Shown piece by piece: positions 3,543 to 25,034 of a stretch of 31,527 nt of DNA (positions are counted from its first letter, which is position 1; the number at the start of each line of letters is the position of its first letter). The stretch spans positions 1 through 31,527 of the IMG/VR virus record IMGVR_UViG_3300033148_006176; one strand, 5' to 3'. A program made the translations under genes and the position numbers. The notes below the pieces were generated by a model. It was given only the letters and a program-made list of their open reading frames with translations, made no database searches and had not been told where the DNA came from. This DNA comes from a virus.

Positions 3543-3959
3543 CTAATTTATTCTAACTATCTCCCCACGCGGATTCTTCCGTGGAAAAGAAGTACCCTTC
3601 GCAAATATTCTGACAAACCTATACCAATACCAAGCCCTAAATTCACACATCCCATCTTCTATACAAATCTTTCTCAGTAATTGGTCTGCATATTTCCTAT
3701 GAATCGTTCTGGAAATAACTCCCTCTCGCATAAGCTGGTAAAGTGCGTCATGTATTAGTGAGCCTCTCATACTATTCAAAGTGTCCAAAGCTAAAAAAGA
3801 AGGTCCATCCCAAGCATAGCCAACCTTAATAAGGAGAACTCCATCCCATAAAGATAGAAACGAATTATCAAAAGAAATATGTCTTAGGTTAGAAACAGGA
3901 TATTCATATTCTACCCTAACCTCATATTTATAACCACCAAGCTTCCTATAAACCAACAT
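3543..3959 (-). CDS. DUF1353-like phage protein
   Basis: The 138-residue protein shows the pattern of DUF1353: an N-terminal beta part, then GYAWDGPSFLAL, and a helical part with MRGSLIHDALYQLMREG followed by a basic C-terminus with several aromatic residues (AWYWYRFVRIF). The family is common in phages and of unknown biochemical role; the conserved His-Asp pair in LIHDALY has led to guesses of an enzyme. The SD AAAGGAAAATAATT-ATG fits the start at 3959. It is next to a lipoprotein-like gene, a place where lysis functions often occur, but no lysis activity can be shown. Confidence 0.65.
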   Translation of the reverse strand: MLVYRKLGGYKYEVRVEYEYPVSNLRHISFDNSFLSLWDGVLLIKVGYAWDGPSFLALDTLNSMRGSLIHDALYQLMREGVISRTIHRKYADQLLRKICIEDGMCEFRAWYWYRFVRIFAKGTSFPRKNPRGEIVRIN

Positions 3960-10267: not shown

Positions 10268-12805
10268 TCAAGTAGATTTAGGAGCAATATGGGGCTTAAA
10301 GTCTTTAGGAACTTTTCTCATCATCAACTTATGATGTAAAGACGCAAAAAAGTCATCTACATCATCAATATATTTTTGAGCTACATCTAACGAACGCAAA
10401 TATGGGTCTACATAATGTTTACCAGCTTTTATAAAACTATGTCCATTAACCCAACCTTTTTTAATACCTTCAACTAAATCCATTACTTCAACATTTTTTG
10501 ATTTGAATGAAATCTTTTTTAATAAATTTATAAACTCAGTTCCCTTACTTTCATCCCACATAAAATACAGAACACCTTCTTGTCGTCCATAAATAGTTTC
10601 TAATTCTGCTATTGATTGATGGCACTCTAAAGGACCGAGCTCAACGGGATGTTTTTTAATCATATCATCAATAGATTTTGGCTTAGGTATCAACTTCTTT
10701 GCTGTCTCAACCTTCTTCAATTCCTTCCCAGCCCATACACTACGTCTCCTAACCTCGGCAGCCGTCCTCTTTATTGTTTTTGGAGCTTCTGCCTGTATAG
10801 ACCTTTCTATAGCCCTATCTTTATCCTTCCCCCACAACTGTCCCTTCTCTCTTCTCGCCTTATTAGCCGGTATCCATGCACACCTACAATTTGGGTGGCG
10901 TGGCAATAAACCTCTCGCTTCCTTAATAGTCATTACCACCCCTTCTAACTCTCCACACTCAGCACAATTATGAACCACCATATAATTTGCAACATAACTA
11001 TTATCACTTTCCACCGACAAATTATAAACTGGTTGATTCTTTTTTAATTTCCATTTTTTTAATTTTTTAATAGGTAGAAAAACAAAGCACCCATTATGAA
11101 TAGCATTATTTATTCTTTCTATAATAAATCTAAAATTATTACGAACCTCCCTCCCAGGCAATCTCAACGTGTCAAAACCATTCCGCTTCGCAATTACATC
11201 CTTTAACTTATCTTTCTTCCCATCCTGATGCCAATTTTCTCCATCTACCTCTATAATCAAATTATAAACAGGCAAATAAAAATCCACCCACCTTCTTTTT
11301 CCATTCAAATAAAAGTATTTTTGGGATTCATATTCAACTTCTATCTTTTTCAACCACCACTCAACCTTCTTTTCAATCCAAGTTTTACCCAGATGATTTT
11401 TGCCCAATGCCATATGAGCTTTTTTCAATGCTGATTCTAATCGTCTCTTATTTCTCCATCCCCAATCTTCCCCTTCTGCTTTCTTTCTGTTGGCCTTTAC
11501 TACATTATCATAATGAGTAGTATCCTTTCTATACGATTCTAATTGTCCTTTCCTTACTGCTTTCCTAAACTTTTCCTGGAAATCTTTACCCCTAAATTTC
11601 TCTTGAAAACCTGCTTGCATTCTCTTCCATTTTTTATCCTTCTTATTTCTTCTTGATAACACTTTGTGTTGTTCAGGGTCTTCCCACCTTTTTTTATTCC
11701 CAAAATTTATTGCACATTCCGGAGAACAAAATCTGTTACCCATAGGCATCTTCTTATTACAAACTGGACACTGTCTTGCAAAATAACTAACCAAATCATC
11801 CTCTTTCAAATTACCAGCTTTAATCCATAAAATCTTTCCTTCCCTTCTTACCAACAAAGGATGATTAGACGTAACTGTAATTTGCCTCTCGTTTCCATTT
11901 ATAGCCCCCTTCAAAATAATTTTAACAACCCTTTCATCAGTCTTCCTATGCCAAGTCTTAGTTACCTTTTTATATCTATCCTTATGAGTCAAAACCAAGT
12001 CACCTTTTTGGACATCCTTAATCCTCTTTGCCCCCTGTTTCGTTAATACTTTGGAAATGCCCTGCAAAATACACACTCTCTCATCACCTGCTGTACTCCA
12101 TTCAGCCATTACCCCAACTTCCTCAACCCCTAATGCCTCAAAAGCATCTAACTGCCCTTCTGCATGAGCTCTTATTATCTCCGTCCTTGCTATCACATTA
12201 GCTCTGGTTTTGGTTATCTTTGTAACATTCTTTCTTAATTCACGAGCAATCTTTTTCGGCCCATACCCCTGTGCCAGTCCCTCAGCCAACGTCCTGCTCA
12301 TTTGCTGCCCCATCACATCTGTAATACCTTTTAATTCATCAAATGCTCTCTCATATAATAATTCTATCTTGTGTAAGGCTTCTGGTTGACCAAAAGCTGT
12401 TCTTATAAACTCAGCCTGTCCCCCTTCAAAAAGAGATGGATGATTTGCCAACTCCTCCGCTCTCAAATCTGTATAAGCCCTCAACCCCCCTTTCTTATAA
12501 GCTGATTCAATGTAGGGGGCCGTCCACGGTTTCCCGCTTACACCCCCCACAGGAGCAAGAATGCCAGCATTTACCTGTTGCTGCAACCACGCTCTATATG
12601 CCTTAACCTTTTGAGCATTGGTTCTAAAACGCCAAGCCTGTCTTACTTGTAATATAGCAGGTCCTTCTAATCCAAAAACATCATCATCTACAACAAGAGT
12701 TTGGATGGCTTTAGAAACCTTCTTGAATCTTCTCGTCATATCTGCCATAAACTTCTTACGAAGCATGGTGGTACGAGTTGGGTCTATTTTAAGTTGGTTA
12801 GGCAT
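10268..12805 (-). CDS. MuF/SPP1 gp7-like head morphogenesis protein interrupted by an intein
   Basis: The 845-residue precursor has a MuF-type N-extein (1-244) with RANVIARTEIIRAHAEGQ and STAGDERV. An intein spans residues 245-613. The C-extein starts CAECGELEG with HPNCRC a little later. After splicing the phrase DERVC-AEC is restored, the hallmark of phage minor head proteins of this group. Such proteins are packaged with the portal and head and assist assembly or DNA entry. The spliced protein would be about 476 residues. The C-terminal part (about 680-845) is an added domain with Cys728, His789 (GHSF) and Asp800 (YVDP), which looks like a papain/transglutaminase-type Cys-His-Asp arrangement. 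Its first 8 bases overlap the upstream gene. Confidence 0.85.
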   Translation of the reverse strand: MPNQLKIDPTRTTMLRKKFMADMTRRFKKVSKAIQTLVVDDDVFGLEGPAILQVRQAWRFRTNAQKVKAYRAWLQQQVNAGILAPVGGVSGKPWTAPYIESAYKKGGLRAYTDLRAEELANHPSLFEGGQAEFIRTAFGQPEALHKIELLYERAFDELKGITDVMGQQMSRTLAEGLAQGYGPKKIARELRKNVTKITKTRANVIARTEIIRAHAEGQLDAFEALGVEEVGVMAEWSTAGDERVCILQGISKVLTKQGAKRIKDVQKGDLVLTHKDRYKKVTKTWHRKTDERVVKIILKGAINGNERQITVTSNHPLLVRREGKILWIKAGNLKEDDLVSYFARQCPVCNKKMPMGNRFCSPECAINFGNKKRWEDPEQHKVLSRRNKKDKKWKRMQAGFQEKFRGKDFQEKFRKAVRKGQLESYRKDTTHYDNVVKANRKKAEGEDWGWRNKRRLESALKKAHMALGKNHLGKTWIEKKVEWWLKKIEVEYESQKYFYLNGKRRWVDFYLPVYNLIIEVDGENWHQDGKKDKLKDVIAKRNGFDTLRLPGREVRNNFRFIIERINNAIHNGCFVFLPIKKLKKWKLKKNQPVYNLSVESDNSYVANYMVVHNCAECGELEGVVMTIKEARGLLPRHPNCRCAWIPANKARREKGQLWGKDKDRAIERSIQAEAPKTIKRTAAEVRRRSVWAGKELKKVETAKKLIPKPKSIDDMIKKHPVELGPLECHQSIAELETIYGRQEGVLYFMWDESKGTEFINLLKKISFKSKNVEVMDLVEGIKKGWVNGHSFIKAGKHYVDPYLRSLDVAQKYIDDVDDFFASLHHKLMMRKVPKDFKPHIAPKST
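10967..12073 (-). mobile_element. Intein with Vsr-like (EDxHD) homing endonuclease
   Basis: The insert is 369 residues, from Cys245 to Asn613 of the host ORF. Block A is CILQGISKVLTKQG with RIKDVQKGDLVLTH. Block B is ITVTSNHPLLV with the TxxH motif. Blocks F/G are PVYNLSVESDNSYVANYMVVHN before Cys+1. Cys1, His612, Asn613 and Cys+1 are all present, so splicing should work by the standard route. Between the splicing halves lie a zinc knuckle (CPVC...FCSPEC), a long basic region and a Vsr-like nuclease: RWVDFYLPVYNLIIEVDGEN, then WHQD (Asp508, Glu519, Asp521, His526, Asp528) and a GFDTLRLPGREV strand. Most inteins carry LAGLIDADG or HNH nucleases; Vsr-like ones are rare. Confidence 0.9.
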
Positions 12806-17278: not shown

Positions 17279-17411
17279 CTCAAACTCCCCATCCGTTCTT
17301 CCAACTACCAAAAAATATACATATAAATCCAAATTTTTTTCACTAAAAACGCCCGTTTTCAGGCTAAAAATGCAGATTCCAAAAAAAAAGCAAAAAAATC
17401 TAAAAATATAC

Positions 17412-17440
17412 TTTACATCATACGATTATTCGCGTATTAT
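17412..17440 (+). promoter_or_regulatory. Early-arm sigma-70-like promoter
   Basis: TTTACA (17412-17417) and TATTAT (17435-17440) have a 17-base spacer. A-tracts at 17377-17399 sit where an UP element would be. The expected start is near 17447. It would drive the long plus-strand operon beginning with the gene at 17789, through a leader of about 340 bases. Confidence 0.75.
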
Positions 17441-17446
17441 ATATAT

Positions 17447-17788
17447 AGTAAGTTACAAGTTAATAATAAGCGGGGCAGTTAAAAAGGTAATGTCCAGAAA
17501 TCGAATCCAGGTGCCGGTAGGGCTAATGGAGAAGCAGAGGTTAAAAACTTTGTAGCCGTTACTGATAGTATTGATTTGGGACACCGGGTTGAGGACACAG
17601 TTAGTAAAGTGTCAAAGTTCCATGGGGATGTTCTTTGCGGAGGACATTGGACCAAAAGGTGTTGGGCAGGTTCGGTACTTCGGTTCCTAAAGTTTATTGA
17701 AAATATGCCAAGGGTGGCAGGTTAAAAACTGTCACCATTGATGTATTTTTTGAAACTTTTTATTAATCTATTTTGAAAGGGCAATACC
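17447..17788 (+). promoter_or_regulatory. Long structured 5' leader of the early operon
   Basis: No convincing gene of normal size lies here. The stretch is richer in G+C than its surroundings (29 of 60 in 17581-17640). It can form several hairpins: GACAC/GTGTC (17594-17598 with 17609-17613), GGTAC-TTCG-GTTCC with one U-U mismatch (17674-17687), and an 8-bp stem GGTGGCAG/CTGTCACC with one G-U pair (17713-17720 with 17729-17736). A 21-residue ORF is at 17490-17555. A separate frame is open for 80 codons (17483-17725) without an ATG until near its end. It could be a structured regulatory RNA or a decayed gene. No known RNA family is recognised. Confidence 0.45.
17490..17555 (+). CDS. Possible 21-residue leader peptide
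   Basis: ATG at 17490 follows AAAAAGGTA, a weak SD about 43 bases after the predicted transcription start. It encodes MSRNRIQVPVGLMEKQRLKT and one more residue, then TAG. It is the first possible start in the early transcript. It could be a regulatory leader peptide for the structured region after it, or chance. Confidence 0.25.
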   Translation: MSRNRIQVPVGLMEKQRLKTL

Positions 17789-17791
17789 ATG
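17757..17791 (+). repeat. Conserved leader copy 1 (no ribozyme before it)
   Basis: This is the first of five near-identical translation leaders of the form TTATTAAYCTA, then TTTTGAAAGG, then RYAATACCATG. It carries the SD GAAAGGG for the gene at 17789. Unlike four later copies, no good hammerhead precedes it; only a hairpin at 17713-17736 followed by TTGATG. Confidence 0.7.
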
Positions 17792-18004
17792 TCAACGAAA
17801 GAAAAAATCAAAGAAGCAATTTACCAAATCTACCAAACAACAGGAGCAGATATTACAAATGCCATTGGCCACGAGCCTTCCGGTATAGAAGTTATGGAAG
17901 CGGCTTGTGGTTTAGATATGTGTAAAGATGTATCCACTCAAAAAGCCTTCGATTGTTTGGACTACAACGAAAAGAAAAAACTTTTTAACGAGGTGATCAA
18001 CTAA
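17789..18004 (+). CDS. Hypothetical protein, first gene of early operon
   Basis: The 71-residue protein (MSTKEKIKEAIYQIYQTTGA at the start) is mostly helical, with two Cys residues near 40-45 (AACGLDMC). It is not recognised. It has a strong SD (GAAAGGGCAATACC-ATG) in the conserved leader, and a hammerhead ribozyme begins 31 bases after its stop. As the first gene of the early transcript it may act on host functions, which is a guess from position. Confidence 0.7.
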   Translation: MSTKEKIKEAIYQIYQTTGADITNAIGHEPSGIEVMEAACGLDMCKDVSTQKAFDCLDYNEKKKLFNEVIN

Positions 18005-18034
18005 CCAATTTGATGTACTAAAAGAATTATAGAA

Positions 18035-18086
18035 GACCGAAACGCCCGCAAGGGCGTCTATTGCTTGTTGCAATACTGATGAGGTC
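18035..18086 (+). ncRNA. Hammerhead ribozyme type II, copy 1
   Basis: All core parts are present in circular order for a type II form (stem II open). Stem II is GACC (18035-18038) with GGTC (18083-18086). GAA follows (18039-18041). Stem III is ACGCCC/GGGCGT (18042-18047 with 18052-18057), loop GCAA. C at 18058 is the cleavage position. Stem I is TATTGC/GCAATA (18059-18064 with 18070-18075). The conserved CTGATGA is at 18076-18082. It lies between the stop of the first early gene and the next start, 40 bases before the ATG at 18127. Confidence 0.93.
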
Positions 18087-18095
18087 AAAAACTAC

Positions 18096-18129
18096 TTATT
18101 AACCTAATTTTTGAAAGGGCAATACCATG
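18096..18129 (+). repeat. Conserved leader copy 2
   Basis: TTATTAACCTAATTTTTGAA followed by AGGGCAATACCATG, directly after ribozyme copy 1. It carries the SD for the gene at 18127. Its 5' part pairs with nothing obvious, so it may be an unstructured landing site for the ribosome after the ribozyme. Confidence 0.8.
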
Positions 18130-18492
18130 GCTACTTTTGTATTTAGACCAAAACAAATCACACAAATTAGAGAAGCATACAAACAATTAAATGAACTTGG
18201 GGACACAAACATTTGGCTCCAGCCTACACATCACGGTGGGTGTATTCAAATCATACTGGACAAACCCGTAGAACAAATCAAAAAAGAGGATTATGTCAAT
18301 GTCTATTGCAAAACCAGAACAGGATACCAAAAACTCTGCAATGATACGGTACACCTACAATCCTCTTTCCAACTCAAGGAAGATTGGATAAACACTCTAC
18401 TTCAACCAAATGGATGTCACATCACATTCCATGTCAATGTAAAAAGAAAAACCATATTACAAGTACAATTAAAAGTTCAAATAAAAAGTTAA
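18127..18492 (+). CDS. Hypothetical early protein
   Basis: The 121-residue protein is not recognised. It reads as an alpha/beta mix: a helix (QITQIREAYKQLNELG), then strands with IWLQPTHHGGCIQIILD, and a beta-rich end (CHITFHVNVKRKTILQVQLK). It has no membrane segment. It lies between hammerhead copies 1 and 2, so after self-cleavage it would be a single-gene mRNA. Confidence 0.7.
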   Translation: MATFVFRPKQITQIREAYKQLNELGDTNIWLQPTHHGGCIQIILDKPVEQIKKEDYVNVYCKTRTGYQKLCNDTVHLQSSFQLKEDWINTLLQPNGCHITFHVNVKRKTILQVQLKVQIKS

Positions 18493-18505
18493 TCTTTGTT
18501 CGATA

Positions 18506-18557
18506 GACCGAAACGCCCACAAGGGCGTCTACTATTTGTAATAGTACTGATGAGGTC
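18506..18557 (+). ncRNA. Hammerhead ribozyme type II, copy 2
   Basis: Stem II is GACC (18506-18509) with GGTC (18554-18557). GAA is 18510-18512. Stem III is ACGCCC/GGGCGT (18513-18518 with 18523-18528), loop ACAA. The cleavage C is at 18529. Stem I is TACTAT/ATAGTA (18530-18535 with 18541-18546). CTGATGA is 18547-18553. Stem I differs at several positions from copy 1 yet still pairs, so pairing is conserved rather than sequence. The next ATG (18593) is 35 bases after the ribozyme. Confidence 0.93.
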
Positions 18558-18563
18558 AAAAAT

Positions 18564-18595
18564 TTATTAACCCATTTTGAAAGGACAGTACCATG
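18564..18595 (+). repeat. Conserved leader copy 3
   Basis: TTATTAACCCATTTTGAAAG followed by GACAGTACCATG. It carries the SD GAAAGGA for the gene at 18593 and follows ribozyme copy 2 by six bases. Confidence 0.8.
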
Positions 18596-19456
18596 CTTAA
18601 AGAAACAAAAAAATTAAGTGAAAGGGCTATGCTTACCCAATTGTCCTTCTCTGTTTGGACAGGAAGAACAAAAGACAATAGGGTATCGGAGGAGGTTACT
18701 GTAAGCAAGAATGCCGAAAGGGACGGCGGTGCCTGGTGGACCTACCTCATTCCAAAGAGGTCCATGCGAAATATCAACATTGCATATACTAAGTGTAAAT
18801 CCACCCATAACAAGCTCACATTACCCTGGAGAGACGGCGGAGACCGAATCTTACCTACAGCAATGTTTCTGGACTATAGCAAATCAATGAGAGAGGCGAA
18901 AGCAGAATTTGATGAGGCTGTAAATGAATTTTTGAAGGAATATCCTGAAATACTTGCAAATGCTCATAAGAGGCTTGGAAAACTACTTGATAATAAGAAG
19001 CTCCCATCCACTGATGAGATTAGCCACAAATTTGGGATACGTCAGAATATATATCCACTACCAGACGTTGCAGACTTTAGGGTAAACTTGCCAAAACAGG
19101 ATGTGGATGAGATACGAGAGCAAATGAATAAAAATATAGACATTACAATAGAAAAAGCAATGACAGAAATATGGCAAAGACTCGCGGAACTTATTGGAAA
19201 GATTGAAAAAACATTAAAAGACCCAAAAAAGAAATTCAAAAACTCACTTATAAACAATCTCAAAGAATTTTGTGAACTTGTCCCAAAACTCAATCTAACA
19301 GATGATTCCAAATTGGAGGGATTTAGAAAAGAAGCCATTAAAAATCTTGCAAATCTAAAACCCGACAACCTAAGAGAGGATAAGACAGAACGAAAAGCGG
19401 CGTATAAAACAGCAAAAAATGTTCTGAAAAAGATGAAGGATTACAAGGGGGTATAA
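18593..19456 (+). CDS. DUF3150-like protein of the MoxR/VWA module
   Basis: The 287-residue protein has LSFSVWTGRTKDNRVSEEVT near the start, then TYLIPKRSM, THNKLTLPWRDGGDRILPTA and later YPLPDVADFRVNLPKQDVDE. The second half is helical and Lys-rich. This layout is that of DUF3150, often encoded next to MoxR ATPases and VWA proteins in phages and plasmids. Its function is unknown. Here it directly precedes the MoxR gene and its own ribozyme unit, so it probably belongs to the same complex. SD is GAAAGGACAGTACC-ATG. Confidence 0.7.
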   Translation: MLKETKKLSERAMLTQLSFSVWTGRTKDNRVSEEVTVSKNAERDGGAWWTYLIPKRSMRNINIAYTKCKSTHNKLTLPWRDGGDRILPTAMFLDYSKSMREAKAEFDEAVNEFLKEYPEILANAHKRLGKLLDNKKLPSTDEISHKFGIRQNIYPLPDVADFRVNLPKQDVDEIREQMNKNIDITIEKAMTEIWQRLAELIGKIEKTLKDPKKKFKNSLINNLKEFCELVPKLNLTDDSKLEGFRKEAIKNLANLKPDNLREDKTERKAAYKTAKNVLKKMKDYKGV

Positions 19457-19458
19457 AA

Positions 19459-19510
19459 GACCGAAACGCCCTTCGGGGCGTCTGCTATTTATAGTAGCAC
19501 TGACGAGGTC
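19459..19510 (+). ncRNA. Hammerhead ribozyme type II, copy 3
   Basis: Stem II is GACC (19459-19462) with GGTC (19507-19510). GAA is 19463-19465. Stem III is ACGCCC/GGGCGT (19466-19471 with 19476-19481), here with a TTCG tetraloop. The cleavage C is at 19482. Stem I is TGCTA/TAGCA (19483-19487 with 19495-19499). The core is CTGACGA (19500-19506), allowed because the fifth base is variable. It starts two bases after the stop of the DUF3150-like gene and ends 43 bases before the ATG at 19554. Confidence 0.93.
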
Positions 19511-19522
19511 AGAAACTTTTAT

Positions 19523-19556
19523 TTATTAACTTATTTTTGGAAAGGATAATACCATG
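19523..19556 (+). repeat. Conserved leader copy 4
   Basis: TTATTAACTTATTTTTGGAA followed by AGGATAATACCATG. It carries the SD for the MoxR gene at 19554 and follows ribozyme copy 3 by 12 bases. Confidence 0.8.
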
Positions 19557-20540
19557 TCCCCAAAAGAACTGAAGAAGGTACTATTAAAAACAGTACCAGC
19601 GGGCCTACCCGTGCTCATCAAAGGAGCTCCTGGGATAGGCAAAAGCGATATTGTTAACCAAGTTGCAGAAGAACTGGAGATGAATTTAATTATAAGTCAT
19701 CCGGTCGTATCAGACCCAACGGATTTCAAAGGCTTGCCTGGTATAGTAGATGGTAAGGCCGAATTCCTTCCATTTGGAGATTTAAGAAGTTTGATACAAG
19801 CTAAAAAACCAACCATTGCTTTTTTAGATGATTTAGGGCAAGCCCCTGCTGTGGTTCAAGCTGCTGCAATGCAGTTAATATTAGCACGTAGAGTCAATGG
19901 TCATAAAGTCAGTAATAAGGTTGTATTTATTGCGGCAACAAATAGGCGGCAAGATAGGGCAGGAGTAACAGGTATTTTAGAACCTGTCAAAAGTAGGTTT
20001 GCTACTATCTTAGAATTAGAAGCCAATGCAGATGATTGGATTGAGTGGGCTATAGAGAATGATATGCCTGCAGAATTAATGGGCTTCGTCCATTTCCGAC
20101 CAGCTCTCCTCAACACAGAGGAAGCCACAGCAGATATTGTTAATCATCCCTGCCCAAGAACCATAGCCTATTGTGGTTCATTATTAAAATCAGGAATAAG
20201 TGATACAGAAGTATTGGCAGGAGCGGTGGGGGAAGGTTGTGCAGCTGAGTTGACCGGCTTTTTGAAAATTTACAATAGTCTGCCCAATATAGCAACTATT
20301 CTCTTAGACCCAGATAGTGCAGAAGTCCCTACCGACCCAGCAACAATCTATGCAGTAGTAGCAGCATTGGTTGGAAAAGTAACAGTAGATAATGCAAATC
20401 ATATCTTCAAATATAGTAATCGTTTACCAATCGATTTTAATGTATTATTGGTACGGGATATGATTCGCAGCGAACCAAAAATCCAAAACACAAAAGGATT
20501 CATCGATTGGATAGCCAAACACCAGGATATCTTATTGTAA
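19554..20540 (+). CDS. MoxR-like AAA+ ATPase
   Basis: The 328-residue protein has Walker A GAPGIGKS (24-31), VSDPTDFKGLPG, Walker B AFLDDL (89-94), sensor 1 IAATNR (about 126-131) and an arginine-finger-like VKSRFATI. MoxR AAA+ proteins form rings and work with VWA-domain partners as chaperones that insert metals or activate other complexes. The VWA partner is encoded two genes downstream. The phage target is unknown; activation or remodelling of a host or phage protein early in infection is plausible. It has its own ribozyme and leader, whereas the next two genes follow without ribozymes, so the three should stay on one mRNA. Confidence 0.88.
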   Translation: MSPKELKKVLLKTVPAGLPVLIKGAPGIGKSDIVNQVAEELEMNLIISHPVVSDPTDFKGLPGIVDGKAEFLPFGDLRSLIQAKKPTIAFLDDLGQAPAVVQAAAMQLILARRVNGHKVSNKVVFIAATNRRQDRAGVTGILEPVKSRFATILELEANADDWIEWAIENDMPAELMGFVHFRPALLNTEEATADIVNHPCPRTIAYCGSLLKSGISDTEVLAGAVGEGCAAELTGFLKIYNSLPNIATILLDPDSAEVPTDPATIYAVVAALVGKVTVDNANHIFKYSNRLPIDFNVLLVRDMIRSEPKIQNTKGFIDWIAKHQDILL

Positions 20541-20559
20541 AAGAAAGGAGAATAAAACC

Positions 20560-20841
20560 ATGAAAGCTATTAGCTTATACCAAGTTTCTAAAAACTCAAA
20601 AAGATACAATTTTGAAGAAATACCCAAAAACACAATAGAGGTTGATAGAAATGTAATTCATTTTGCTAATCGGAGGAAAAGATTTAGATTACTACAATAT
20701 TACCAAGTTCAAACAGCCTGGAGTAAAAATGGTCGGCATTTCAAACCCATATTTACCAAATTCTATTTGCCCACGGACTCTTTATTCCAAGTACTTACCA
20801 GATACTATGCGTGGGTAATTAAAAAAGAAAAGGGGGTATAA
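20560..20841 (+). CDS. Hypothetical protein between MoxR and VWA genes
   Basis: The 93-residue basic protein (MKAISLYQVSKNSKRYNFEE at the start) has several Tyr, Phe and Lys residues and no recognised domain. It has a strong SD (AAGAAAGGAGAATAAAACC-ATG), a stop one base before the VWA gene, and no ribozyme on either side. It probably acts with the MoxR/VWA pair, judged by position only. Confidence 0.65.
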   Translation: MKAISLYQVSKNSKRYNFEEIPKNTIEVDRNVIHFANRRKRFRLLQYYQVQTAWSKNGRHFKPIFTKFYLPTDSLFQVLTRYYAWVIKKEKGV

Positions 20842-20842
20842 A

Positions 20843-22063
20843 ATGAGTACATTAGATAAAATCTTAAAAGCTCGTTCCATACTCATTCTCGACCATCCCT
20901 TTTTTGGCAGTTTGGCACTCCGATTAGGTTTGATTGAGGATAAATCATTTGAATCGATGGCAATCAATGGTAAAGATATATATTACAATCCCAAATTTGT
21001 TGATTCCTTAACAACAAACGAACTTACAGGGGTATTGGCCCATGAGGTTATGCATATTGCCCTGGGTCATGCCTGGAGACAAGAAAAGAGAGAGCATAAA
21101 AGATGGAATATAGCGGGCGATTATGTCATCAATGGAAATCTAATACAAACAGGATTCACTTTACCAAAAGGGCACCTCATAGAACCTAAGTATTCTTTAT
21201 TATCAACTGAGGAAATTTACAATCAACTTAAACAACAACAAGAAGAAAAAGAAGAAGAAGAACAAAAGAATACTGGTAAACAAAAAAGTAATGAAGAAAA
21301 ACCATTTCAAGAAGAACAAGAAAAAAAGAAAGGTAGTGATAAGGGAAAAGGTAACGGGAAAAGGGATGAAACGAACAAAGATGATCCAGGTGGGTGTGGT
21401 GCTGTTTTACCTTACCCCTCAGAAAATAAACAAGAGGAAAGAGAGATGAAGGCCGAATGGCAGGCGGCAATAAGCCAAGCCATACAAGTGGCCAAAGGAA
21501 ACCTCCCTGCAAGTATCAAAAGGCAAGTACAGAAAATTCTTAACCCCGAAATACCCTGGCATATTTTATTACGAGACTTTGTGGAAAAAATAGCCAGGAA
21601 CGATTATGATTGGTCAAGACCTTCTCGGAGATATATAGGGCAAGGCATCATACTGCCAAGTCTTATCAGCGAGCAGATTCCTGAGATAGTTATAGCTATT
21701 GACACGAGTGGTAGCATTAATGAGAAGGTTTTATCAATATTCGCAGCAGAAGCCTCCAGTATTCTTGATGCTTATGACACTACAATTAGAGTAGTATATT
21801 GTGATACTAAGGTACAAAAGGAAGAGATATTTACAAGAGCCGATTTACCAATGAAACTAAATCCGGTAGGTAGGGGAGGAACTGATTTCTGCCCTGTATT
21901 TGACCACATCAAAATCCAAAACATCTCCCCCGCCTGCCTAATATACTTCACAGATTTGTATGGTAGATTTCCAAAACAGGAAGCAGAATATCCTACCATG
22001 TGGCTTACTACAACCAAAGATAAAAAAGCACCGTTCGGACAAACAGTAATTTTCAAAAATTAA
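20843..22063 (+). CDS. Zincin-like metallopeptidase/VWA-like domain protein (DUF2201-like)
   Basis: The 406-residue protein has an N-terminal metallopeptidase-like domain with HEVMHIALGH (67-76), the HExxHxxxGH zinc site. A low-complexity Glu/Lys/Gln-rich linker follows (about 128-180). The C-terminal VWA-like domain has the MIDAS motif: DTSGS (287-291), Thr347 (GGTD) and Asp371 (YFTD). This is the two-domain DUF2201-type partner of MoxR ATPases. The zincin part may be structural rather than proteolytic in some members, but all zinc ligands are present here. It may bind a metal-dependent client with MoxR. Hammerhead copy 4 begins two bases after the stop. Confidence 0.85.
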   Translation: MSTLDKILKARSILILDHPFFGSLALRLGLIEDKSFESMAINGKDIYYNPKFVDSLTTNELTGVLAHEVMHIALGHAWRQEKREHKRWNIAGDYVINGNLIQTGFTLPKGHLIEPKYSLLSTEEIYNQLKQQQEEKEEEEQKNTGKQKSNEEKPFQEEQEKKKGSDKGKGNGKRDETNKDDPGGCGAVLPYPSENKQEEREMKAEWQAAISQAIQVAKGNLPASIKRQVQKILNPEIPWHILLRDFVEKIARNDYDWSRPSRRYIGQGIILPSLISEQIPEIVIAIDTSGSINEKVLSIFAAEASSILDAYDTTIRVVYCDTKVQKEEIFTRADLPMKLNPVGRGGTDFCPVFDHIKIQNISPACLIYFTDLYGRFPKQEAEYPTMWLTTTKDKKAPFGQTVIFKN

Positions 22064-22064
22064 A

Positions 22065-22117
22065 ATCGAGACCGCCTTCGGGCGGTCTGTCAGTTTGGTA
22101 TCTGACACTGATGAGAT
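22065..22117 (+). ncRNA. Hammerhead ribozyme type II, copy 4, with a core change
   Basis: Stem II is ATC (22065-22067) with GAT (22115-22117). Stem III is ACCGCC/GGCGGT (22071-22076 with 22081-22086), TTCG loop. The cleavage C is 22087. Stem I is TGTCAG/CTGACA (22088-22093 with 22102-22107), and CTGATGA is 22108-22114. The three bases before stem III read GAG, not GAA (22068-22070), so core base A14 is G. That change usually harms catalysis. Stem II is one pair shorter than in the other copies. It is 39 bases before the ATG at 22157. Confidence 0.75.
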
Positions 22118-22126
22118 AACCAATTT

Positions 22127-22159
22127 TTATTAACCTATTTTAGAAAGGATAATACCATG
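22127..22159 (+). repeat. Conserved leader copy 5
   Basis: TTATTAACCTATTTTAGAAA followed by GGATAATACCATG. It carries the SD for the gene at 22157 and follows ribozyme copy 4 by nine bases. Confidence 0.8.
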
Positions 22160-22879
22160 TCAAAAACAGAAACAAAAAAAAGAGGGAGAACAAAATTAGT
22201 TTGGTACAAAAATACCACAGTTTGGGAAAACTTTCCTTTGGTAATACTTGCAAAGGAAATTGAGAAACAGGCTTGGTTTACAGGAAAAATTTACACCTGC
22301 GGACATCTCACCCTCGATGAAGCAAAAAAACGATTGCTTCAAGGGAGTGGATTTGAACCCAACGATTTACGTTTAATACAACAATATAAATCCTATGAAA
22401 TGAAAGTCTATATTGAATGGATTTTTCAAGAAACAAGGTGCAACATACAATTAAAAAACCCCCACAGTATGTATATTTATTCCCAAAACAAGATAACAAA
22501 ATCAAAATACATAGAAGGAGTACTTGAAAGAATTCAACAGGCTTTTGAAGAAGGAATGTCCTTAGTAGAAAAGATGATATCCAAAAAGAAGGAAGAAGAA
22601 GCAGCAGCAAAAATAGCAAAAGAATATCACAAGAATCTATGCGAGAGACTCGGAGTAGAAGTAATACCAAATAAGTATATGGTATATAACTTCACATACG
22701 GAATGAATCGAAAGTTCCAAATGCAATTCCAAAAAGATAGTAAAGACGGTTCAACAGAAGAAGTATTTAACATCAATAACATTAGAGGTAGTTTCGGAAT
22801 AGAGGAAATCAAACAGTTAATCAAAGTTATAGGAGGCAGTCCAAGAGCGATTACAAGCCGCCTAACAAATACCAAATAA
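22157..22879 (+). CDS. Hypothetical protein after the MoxR/VWA module
   Basis: The 240-residue protein is not recognised. It has a basic N-terminus (KTETKKRGRTKLVWYKN), a middle with CGHLTLDEAKKRLLQG and a long charged helix (about 125-165, with KKKEEEAAAKIAKEYHK). A C-terminal part reads SFGIEEIKQLIKVIGGSPRA. It has no signal peptide or membrane span. It shares the leader and ribozyme arrangement of the other early genes. A link to the MoxR/VWA module is inferred from this shared control. Confidence 0.65.
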   Translation: MSKTETKKRGRTKLVWYKNTTVWENFPLVILAKEIEKQAWFTGKIYTCGHLTLDEAKKRLLQGSGFEPNDLRLIQQYKSYEMKVYIEWIFQETRCNIQLKNPHSMYIYSQNKITKSKYIEGVLERIQQAFEEGMSLVEKMISKKKEEEAAAKIAKEYHKNLCERLGVEVIPNKYMVYNFTYGMNRKFQMQFQKDSKDGSTEEVFNINNIRGSFGIEEIKQLIKVIGGSPRAITSRLTNTK

Positions 22880-22902
22880 TTAGTAATTAGAAAGGACCCA
22901 AA

Positions 22903-23100
22903 ATGAATACCATAAATTTCAGAATCCAAATTAGAACACTTATGGAGAGAAAAAAGGTCAGTGTAGCCAAACTATCCCGGATGGTTAACCTCCACCAAGA
23001 TACCATCTACAAATATCTGCGAGAAGAATCAGAAATCTCGGCAGCAAATCTTGAGAAACTATTCAACACTCTAAACACAATGGAAGACTCAAAACTCTAA
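22903..23100 (+). CDS. XRE-family helix-turn-helix regulator
   Basis: The 65-residue protein is a single lambda-repressor-like HTH domain: IRTLMERKKVSVAKLSRMVN, then HQDTIYKYLREESEISAANL, with the usual spacing between helices. Such small Cro/CI-like proteins bind DNA operators as dimers. A candidate operator is the ATTGC/GCAAT dyad at the 26.2 kb promoter, but this is a guess. SD is AGAAAGGACCCAAA-ATG. It is followed closely by the sigma-like gene. Confidence 0.8.
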   Translation: MNTINFRIQIRTLMERKKVSVAKLSRMVNLHQDTIYKYLREESEISAANLEKLFNTLNTMEDSKL

Positions 23101-23122
23101 GAATAAAAAAAGGAGAAATACC

Positions 23123-23659
23123 ATGGAATCAACATTATTAAAAAAGGATGCCTTAACGGAAACTTATTATGATATGGAAAACTTGATAAATGATACGGTT
23201 TGGCGGTTTTGTAATCGGTATGGGGGAGATTTTGAAGAGTGGAAGGCAGAAGCCAATCTTACTTTCGTCCGGGCATTCAATACACATAAAAGGAGTAAGG
23301 CTCAATTTTCTACCTGGCTCCGATTCTGTGTTTGGAAACGATTATTAGATTATTATACAGCTTTGCAAAAACAAAGTCCCAAAACAATCAGAATTGAAAG
23401 AGATCTTTCCTTAGAAAATTTCGAATCCAAAAAAAGATATTCCTTCTCATCCTTGGAACTGTTGGATGGTTTGCAGGAAGACACAAAGACACTCATCAAT
23501 CTGATATGGAACCTGCCACATGATTTACCCATAAGTAATGGAGATAGTCCTTGCCACACAAAAATTGCTTTGAAAAATTATCTTCGAGACGCGGGCTGGA
23601 CTTTGAAAAGAATTAAAGAAAGTTTTGAAGAAATCACGAGGGTTATTAATGATTATTAA
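23123..23659 (+). CDS. Sigma-70 region 2-like protein
   Basis: The 178-residue protein has, from about residue 15 to 80, ENLINDTVWRFCNRYGGDFE, EANLTFVRAFNTHKRSKAQF and STWLRFCVWKRLLDYY. This resembles sigma factor region 2 (the F-STW motif after a helix is characteristic). The C-terminal part has KNYLRDAGWTLKRIKESFEE, which may be a region 4-like HTH. It could direct late transcription or tune host RNA polymerase. The late promoters seen here look like ordinary sigma-70 sites. SD is AAAGGAGAAATACC-ATG. Its end overlaps the SNF2 gene. Confidence 0.65.
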   Translation: MESTLLKKDALTETYYDMENLINDTVWRFCNRYGGDFEEWKAEANLTFVRAFNTHKRSKAQFSTWLRFCVWKRLLDYYTALQKQSPKTIRIERDLSLENFESKKRYSFSSLELLDGLQEDTKTLINLIWNLPHDLPISNGDSPCHTKIALKNYLRDAGWTLKRIKESFEEITRVINDY

Positions 23660-25034
23660 GAAACTACCTTATCAATCAAAAGCCGTTCATAGAATTGAAC
23701 ATTTTAACGGAAGAGCCCTCCTCGCAGATGAGATGGGTTTGGGCAAAACCGTGGAAGCCCTGCTATGGGTAAAAGAACATCCAAATAGAAGACCTGTAAT
23801 AATAGTCTGCCCCGCCTCTCTAAAATGGATGTGGAAATCTTTCATTCATAGGGTCCTTAAAGTCAGATGCGAAATACTATACGGAACCTCTCCGCCTAAA
23901 ACAGGTCTGACAGGAAAACACTCTTTCCTAATTATCAATTATGAAATCTTGCAGTATTGGACGACCGAACTTAAAAAACTAAAACCTAAAATACTTATTA
24001 TTGATGAGGTCCACTACATCAAGAATTACAAAGCAAAAAGAACCCAAGCCATTCGCAGATTAAAAAAGATACCTTATATAATAGCAATTAGTGGAACCCC
24101 ATTAACAAACAGGCCCGCTGAATTGTGGAATGTTCTTCATCTTCTCCGACCAGACAAATTCCATGATAAACTTCCTTTCGTCATTAGGTATTGTAATCGC
24201 AAATGGACACCATGGGGCTGGGATATTAGTGGGGCGAGTCATCTAAAAGAATTACACAGAAAACTCAAATCAACAATGATGATACGAAGATTAAAAAAAG
24301 ATGTACTAAAAGAATTACCTGACAAGACCAGGCATATCATCCCTCTTGAAATTAAACGGGAGGAATATGAAGAAGCATTAAATAATTTTATCAAGTGGTT
24401 ATCAAAAAAATCTATCTCCAAAGCCAATCGAGCAATGAAAGCCAAATCTCTAACTAAAATGGGATATTTGAAAAGATTAGCAGCAGAACTTAAAATGAAA
24501 CCTGTACTATCTTGGATAGATGATTTCTTAGAAGAAAGCGATGAGAAATTAGTTTTATTTTGCATCCACAAAAATATCATAAGACTTCTTCACAATAAAT
24601 ATAAAGGAATCAGTACAATAGTGGATGGAAATGTGTCCGGGGAAAAAAGAAAAAAGGCAATTCATAATTTCCAAAAAAATAAACGAATAAGGATATTTAT
24701 AGGGAATATAAAAGTGGCTGGAGTAGGTATCACATTAACAGCGGCAAGTTCGTTGGTTTTCGTAGAAATGGATTTCGTCCCAGGCAACCATACTCAAGCA
24801 GAAGACCGTATTCACAGAATAGGTCAAAAAAATGCTGTTAATATATATTATCTTATAGCGAAGGATACTATAGAAGAAAACCTCTGTAAATTAATTCAGA
24901 AAAAACAAAAGATACTCGCATCTACATTAGATGGCAAGAAAAAGTGTTCAAATCAATTAAATATCTTCGCCAAACTTGAAAAAGAATTACAAAATAGAAA
25001 TCGTCTTTCAGGAAACCATTTAAGAAAGGAATAA
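23649..25034 (+). CDS. SNF2-family DNA helicase/translocase
   Basis: The 461-residue protein has the two-lobe SNF2 core: DEMGLGKT (27-34, Walker A), VCPASLKWMW (motif Ia), DEVH (119-122, motif II), SGTPLTN (148-154, motif III). In the second lobe come GVGITLTAASSLVFVE and the motif VI stretch QAEDRIHRIGQ. It is short and resembles SMARCAL1/HARP-like phage annealing helicases that remodel forks. I start at the ATG at 23649 with GAGGGTT upstream; the frame also opens at a TTG at 23625. It overlaps the sigma-like gene by 11 bases, so translation is probably coupled. Confidence 0.9.
   Translation: MIIKKLPYQSKAVHRIEHFNGRALLADEMGLGKTVEALLWVKEHPNRRPVIIVCPASLKWMWKSFIHRVLKVRCEILYGTSPPKTGLTGKHSFLIINYEILQYWTTELKKLKPKILIIDEVHYIKNYKAKRTQAIRRLKKIPYIIAISGTPLTNRPAELWNVLHLLRPDKFHDKLPFVIRYCNRKWTPWGWDISGASHLKELHRKLKSTMMIRRLKKDVLKELPDKTRHIIPLEIKREEYEEALNNFIKWLSKKSISKANRAMKAKSLTKMGYLKRLAAELKMKPVLSWIDDFLEESDEKLVLFCIHKNIIRLLHNKYKGISTIVDGNVSGEKRKKAIHNFQKNKRIRIFIGNIKVAGVGITLTAASSLVFVEMDFVPGNHTQAEDRIHRIGQKNAVNIYYLIAKDTIEENLCKLIQKKQKILASTLDGKKKCSNQLNIFAKLEKELQNRNRLSGNHLRKE

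Follow-up and report, generated by a model that had tools for sequence, protein, structure and literature searches.

Hammerhead ribozymes turned up in phages in large numbers in 2011, and what purpose they serve there has been an open question ever since. The question is raised anew by virus record IMGVR_UViG_3300033148_006176 (31,527 bases, analysed over its whole length and hereafter called the window), in which four predicted type II hammerheads follow one another in a block of genes that includes those for a DUF3150 protein, a MoxR-type AAA ATPase and a DUF2201 metallopeptidase/VWA-like protein. Given the sequence, fold and covariation of these hammerheads, their restriction to the sense strand, their position and what relatives carry in their place, we consider it likely that they are punctuation marks of a polycistronic phage transcript. 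Judged against the open-access literature, what is new is that a tRNA-like structure or a hairpin takes the place of the hammerhead in homologous gaps of relatives, above all between DUF3150 and MoxR.

Four type II hammerheads between the genes of one block

All four copies lie on the plus (sense) strand, each following a stop codon and preceding the ribosome-binding site of the next gene. Cleavage is predicted after C18058 in copy 1 (18035..18086; stems I/II/III of 6/4/6 base pairs (bp), loop III GCAA), after C18529 in copy 2 (18506..18557; 7/4/6 bp, loop III ACAA) and after C19482 in copy 3 (19459..19510; 7/4/6 bp, loop III UUCG); in copy 4 (22065..22117; loop III UUCG), a core variant with A14G, the site would be after C22087. 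The distance from the upstream stop codon to the hammerhead start is 30, 13, 2 and 1 nucleotides (nt) for copies 1 to 4, respectively, and that from the hammerhead end to the next ATG is 40, 35, 43 and 39 nt; copy 3 occupies the gap between DUF3150 and MoxR and starts 2 nt past the DUF3150 stop.

An earlier reading of these letters (the original prediction) had given the same coordinates, cleavage positions, loops and start-codon distances for all four copies. It had also ascribed the full hammerhead layout to each of them, which is accurate for copies 1 to 3, with the exact core CUGANGA ... GAAA, a UH cleavage site and type II order, but not for copy 4, where GAGA stands in place of GAAA. The elements do fill four gaps of the operon, as had been claimed, whereas two short gaps of the gene block, 20541-20559 and 22880-22902, hold no hammerhead element; that the block is an early one is inferred from its gene content. 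A scan of the window for type I and III hammerheads yielded no convincing case.

Structure, covariation, strand bias and position all lend good support to the identity of the elements as type II hammerheads. A search with the Rfam type II model (RF02276), which had been recommended along with the original prediction, matched all four copies, at 30.1, 31.8, 29.1 and 35.2 bits (E from 2.4e-7 to 9.5e-6 for this single family against the 31.5-kb record, and from 1.5e-4 to 6e-3 for all families against 4.8 kb). When the window was shuffled 100 times at the dinucleotide level, loose type II criteria picked out 1 perfect-core match in total and no match as strong as copies 1-3. When copies 1-3 are folded in isolation, the minimum free energy (MFE) structure is the hammerhead (z about -3). 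In an alignment of eight sequences (the four of the window and four from the contigs L014, L134 and L137), stems are paired in 99.2% of the cells, compared to 28-45% in slid-alignment controls, and 7 of the 15 stem pairs show two-sided change, including 4 of the 5 pairs of stem I; the contention that stem I varies while its pairing is kept is thus borne out by compensatory changes. Around relatives of DUF3150 and MoxR (1.75 Mb of loci), 19 perfect type II cores were found in sense and 0 in antisense orientation, a count into which overlapping loci of the same contigs entered more than once. The claim that the elements divide the operon into gene units is well supported on the same four grounds, the cutting itself being predicted.

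Several observations weigh against the punctuation reading. All four RF02276 scores are under the gathering score of 37 bits, which is a curation threshold and not a structural feature, and a default Rfam search at that score is therefore empty for the window. The model is built around a longer loop I that forms a pseudoknot. Copies 1-3 lack a pseudoknot of at least 4 bp between loop I and the 3' tail (at most 3 bp can form), so that fast cleavage at low magnesium is uncertain; such a pseudoknot of at least 4 bp is found in the majority of type II hammerheads, not in all. In longer sequence context, the MFE fold pairs the CUGAUGA strand elsewhere, with stem III kept in all cases and stem I also kept in copies 1 and 3, and the z-scores of the flanked folds are weak. 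Finally, the DUF3150-MoxR gap of L004, a close relative, is 36 nt long and holds no strong element, so that an element is not essential there.

Copy 4 stands apart. Among 107 distinct type II sequences, pooled from all collected loci, 102 have a perfect core, 4 carry U4C and 1, copy 4, carries A14G. Its predicted fold pairs G14 with the cleavage-site C17 and includes an 8-bp UUCG hairpin; a 5-bp pseudoknot, UUGGU/ACCAA, is possible between the stem I loop and the 3' tail at about 22119-22123. Changes at invariant positions of the hammerhead core usually reduce activity (PMC3088659). Because A14G is unique among the 107 sequences and G14 is able to pair with C17, cleavage of copy 4 is probably slow or absent, and this copy may now serve mainly as a stable UUCG hairpin.

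Copies 1-3 would cleave themselves while the RNA is being made or shortly afterwards. Of the two products, the upstream mRNA would carry the stem III hairpin and a 2',3'-cyclic phosphate at its 3' end, and the downstream mRNA would have a 5'-OH followed by the stem I hairpin at its start; cutting between genes in this manner could make the stability and dosage of one gene independent of those of its neighbours. Many of the ribozymes begin directly at the stop codon of the preceding gene, where stem II and some of the core would lie beneath a terminating ribosome, so that cleavage may be delayed until ribosomes have cleared.

Replacement of the hammerhead in homologous gaps

The contigs of relatives (numbered with L) come from viral metagenomes and are mostly fragments; the element lists for each gap were de-duplicated by sequence, and overlapping loci were not always merged in the counts. 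A search of the same gaps in related phages, also proposed with the original prediction, recovered hammerheads in some of them, but the DUF3150-MoxR gap often contains a tRNA-like structure or a hairpin instead. Thus, where the window has copy 3, L006, L007, L011 and L137 have a tRNA-like structure composed of an acceptor-like stem of 6-8 bp and a T arm with the loop TTCRANN. The space for D and anticodon arms is only 17-24 nt in L011 and L137, and is 57 nt in L006 and 74 nt in L007; the tRNA-like elements of the homologous gaps mostly lack an anticodon arm. A tRNA-like structure is also located directly ahead of MoxR in L233. The DUF3150-MoxR gap holds hairpins in L005, L009, L010 and L139, and no strong element in L218 (67 nt). 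The case of L007, the nearest relative (MoxR 89% identical), is the clearest: the tRNA-like element is placed exactly at the site of the window's ribozyme, a clean exchange between the conserved end of DUF3150 and the conserved ribosome-binding module. Placement within the gap is alike for hammerheads and tRNA-like structures.

A strict scan for tRNA-like structures gave 23 sense matches (including overlapping-locus duplicates, four ordinary tRNAs and one chance long-insert match) vs. 1 antisense match, which is a tRNA; shuffled sets gave 0.33 matches each. The possibility that the gap elements are true tRNAs was rejected: ARAGORN called no tRNA in the gaps of the window or of L004-L014, and the sole Rfam match among the gap elements was a weak tRNA-Sec in L006, at 24.9 bits against a cut-off of 47. 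In the same contig (345-4700), there are five hairpins of 12-13 bp with the loop TGCAATT or TGTAATT, most of them in successive intergenic gaps, whose stems differ while the loop is kept. A 12-13 bp stem with a T-like loop has the same length as the acceptor-T minihelix of tRNA. Four contigs carry 8-bp hairpins with the loop GTTNAAAR, in sense orientation only.

Hammerheads that closely resemble those of the window form a near-identical subfamily seen in only three other contigs, all within the window's clade. In the more distant relative L011, three type II hammerheads that differ from these in sequence and have a 5-6 bp pseudoknot are located 5' of DUF3150 and directly after the VWA gene. 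At 5890-6000 of L011, ahead of MoxR, a hammerhead-like element keeps its stems and pseudoknot and has a degenerate CUGAUGA strand (TCGAAAAGAC); it is apparently a dead hammerhead copy. L142/L219 has one type II hammerhead between MoxR and VWA, and L213/L214 one with a long stem III, which in L213 (5340-5460, in a phage gap) is accompanied by a large loop III. Two type II hammerheads with a U4C core are found in L226/L228; the CCGATGA core was noted at 3559-3612 and 3858-3916 of L226, at 2804-2867 of L253, and in L070. The U4C change is tolerated in a viroid.

Because these gaps are occupied in relatives by a tRNA-like structure or by a hairpin, a cut or a cap at these sites may count more than the hammerhead as such; the tRNA-like structures in the homologous gap of close relatives point to the inter-gene mark, not the ribozyme, as the selected trait. 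The same job would be performed in relatives by tRNA-like elements, as putative substrates of RNase P/Z, or by plain hairpins. Known targets of RNase P include operon mRNAs and phage RNAs (PMC11143913), which makes the tRNA-like elements plausible equivalents; if so, an RNA that cuts itself and an RNase P-type substrate would be equivalent in function, and the swap hints at a more general punctuation system. As a tentative extension, which we hold to be somewhat less probable than not, the clade may use interchangeable RNA punctuation, one element per large gap. The elements would be self-cleaving hammerheads, T-loop-like minihelices of 12-13 bp, or minimal tRNA-like structures, most of which lack an anticodon arm and which would be RNase P/Z substrates; they would be exchanged as cassettes between the stop codon and the conserved ribosome-binding module, so that at a given site cutting by a host enzyme could stand in for self-cleavage and vice versa. 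A general link between tRNA-like elements and hammerheads across phages was considered and rejected: in the hammerhead contigs of other phages, only 2 same-strand matches were found in 1.04 Mb, and the exchange is therefore so far specific to the MoxR clade.

Serial hammerheads in other viruses

The original prediction regarded a serial set as unusual. Such sets are, however, already known in phages: clustered hammerheads were described in prophages of C. scindens, A. caulinodans and A. tumefaciens by Perreault et al. in 2011, who proposed cutting of the mRNA into gene lengths, with cleavage shown in vitro and, for A. tumefaciens, in E. coli (PMC3088659). Scanned with a simple pattern, viral contigs gave at least 119 stretches. 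Among the matches listed, to which all counts in this section refer, L060 packs 8 type II hammerheads into about 3.3 kb, L049 and L103 (possibly the same phage) have 7 each, and other viral contigs share the stop-element-start layout with the window. There are 97 distinct type II copies in this set. Where the upstream gene is known, 56% start within -3 to +5 nt of its stop codon, and 64% of the copies are located 15-60 nt ahead of a start codon (antisense, 0%); these figures are descriptive only because some of the contigs are related.

Alternative explanations

That relatives have simple hairpins in these gaps could mean that the elements are mainly structural caps or insulators, whereby a stable hairpin past the stop codon blocks 3'-5' decay and self-cleavage is of minor importance; copy 4, which keeps its fold, with the 8-bp UUCG hairpin, despite the core change, fits this explanation as well. 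However, a cap needs neither CUGAUGA nor GAAA, and copies 1-3 as well as 102 of the 107 distinct sequences keep the catalytic core without a change while the stems drift freely, so that caps appear improbable as the main function. Patchy presence and the confinement of the near-identical subfamily to a single clade would be compatible with remnants of a selfish ribozyme-bearing element that has no role for the phage. Such an origin is very hard to reconcile with the strict gap position, the sense-only orientation, the compensatory stem changes and the exchange of the hammerhead for a different structured RNA at the same place, and we give it little credence.

The ribozymes might instead be regulated, with cleavage gated by upstream translation or by pairing of CUGAUGA with a downstream UUAUUAA. 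The start of many ribozymes at or beside the stop codon and the alternative pairing in flanked folds are consistent with this possibility, but UUAUUAA is also present in gaps without a hammerhead, so that the motif is not specific to ribozyme control; moreover, the z-scores of those folds are weak and no ligand-like extension was seen, and such gating is accordingly judged unlikely. Intrinsic terminators that merely resemble hammerheads were also considered, given that a terminator scan lists the stem III hairpins of copies 1-3 as weak terminator-like sites. The tails of these hairpins (CTATTGCTTG, CTACTATTTG and CTGCTATTTA) have no continuous T run of the kind that directly follows the GC-rich hairpin of an intrinsic terminator, only scattered T; several such sites would follow in succession within one gene block, and the hammerhead core and the stem I covariation would be left unexplained, which makes termination the most remote of the explanations. 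Punctuation of the transcript by type II hammerheads is the reading that we retain.

The gene block and its surroundings

The minus strand of the window encodes portal, Mu F-like head and terminase genes, and an intein with a DUF559-type domain was noted inside the Mu F-like head protein (10268-12805, minus strand). The plus strand from ~17.8 kb carries a replication/regulation gene block, which comprises gene 1 (17789..18004, 71 amino acids (aa), no assigned function), gene 2 (18127..18492, 121 aa, no assigned function), the DUF3150 protein (18593..19456, 287 aa; PF11348, E 3.5e-4, under the family cut-off), the MoxR-type ATPase (19554..20540, 328 aa; PF07728), the DUF2201 metallopeptidase/VWA-like protein (20843..22063, 406 aa; PF13203, PF09967) and, 3' of copy 4, a 240-aa protein with no assigned function (22157..22879). 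The gaps share a 3' module consisting of a U-rich stretch, GAAAGG and NNAATACC, then ATG, exemplified on the plus strand by gap 1 (18109..18126); similar modules are also found ahead of 17789, 18593, 19554 and 22157. A search of phage GenBank DNA with 17400-25000 gave no match; a protein search with MoxR found distant relatives only (33-36% identity among the best matches listed), and one with DUF3150 three records only, at 29%.

A hammerhead ahead of gene 1 (17690-17788) was rejected, as this region contains a hairpin only, GGTGGCAG[GTTAAAAA]CTGTCACC (17713..17736, plus strand), in the gene 1 leader where a hammerhead might stand; hairpins of relatives share its loop type, GTTNAAAR. Farther upstream, at 17471-17560, a conserved leader, GGGCAGT...GGYAATGTCC...TCCAGGTGYCGGTAGGGCTAATGGAGAAG, includes a variable yet pairing hairpin and is 83% identical in L134 and L004, where it lies 5' of the same gene block; it is a possible candidate for a structured 5' leader RNA. 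The top sense promoter-like match (10/12) is at 17412-17440, just 5' of the gene block; the total count of promoter-like sites in the window was not above that in shuffles.

Comparison with known systems

The window elements agree with known type II hammerheads (RF02276; PMC3088659) in core, stem order, short open stem II and phage context, as well as in clustering between genes, for which mRNA cutting has been proposed. Unlike most type II hammerheads, copies 1-3 have no loop I/3' tail pseudoknot, and unlike the RF02276 standard, copy 4 has A14G and the scores of 29-35 bits are under 37. Theta ribozymes of gut phages (PMC10879173) are likewise small self-cleaving RNAs in phage genomes, but they have a hepatitis delta virus (HDV)-like fold and are tied to phage suppressor tRNAs, not to gaps between protein genes. 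The relatives' elements resemble RNase P cutting sites (PMC11143913) in that tRNA-like or stem structures in non-tRNA transcripts serve as the sites; those systems use a host enzyme, whereas self-cleavage is predicted for the window, and the relatives' elements are RNase P targets by inference only. The window also resembles the prophage clusters of C. scindens, A. caulinodans and A. tumefaciens (PMC3088659), where tandem ribozymes also flank single genes or short blocks; the window differs from these in its genes, DUF3150, MoxR and DUF2201-VWA, and in that its relatives swap the ribozyme for tRNA-like structures.

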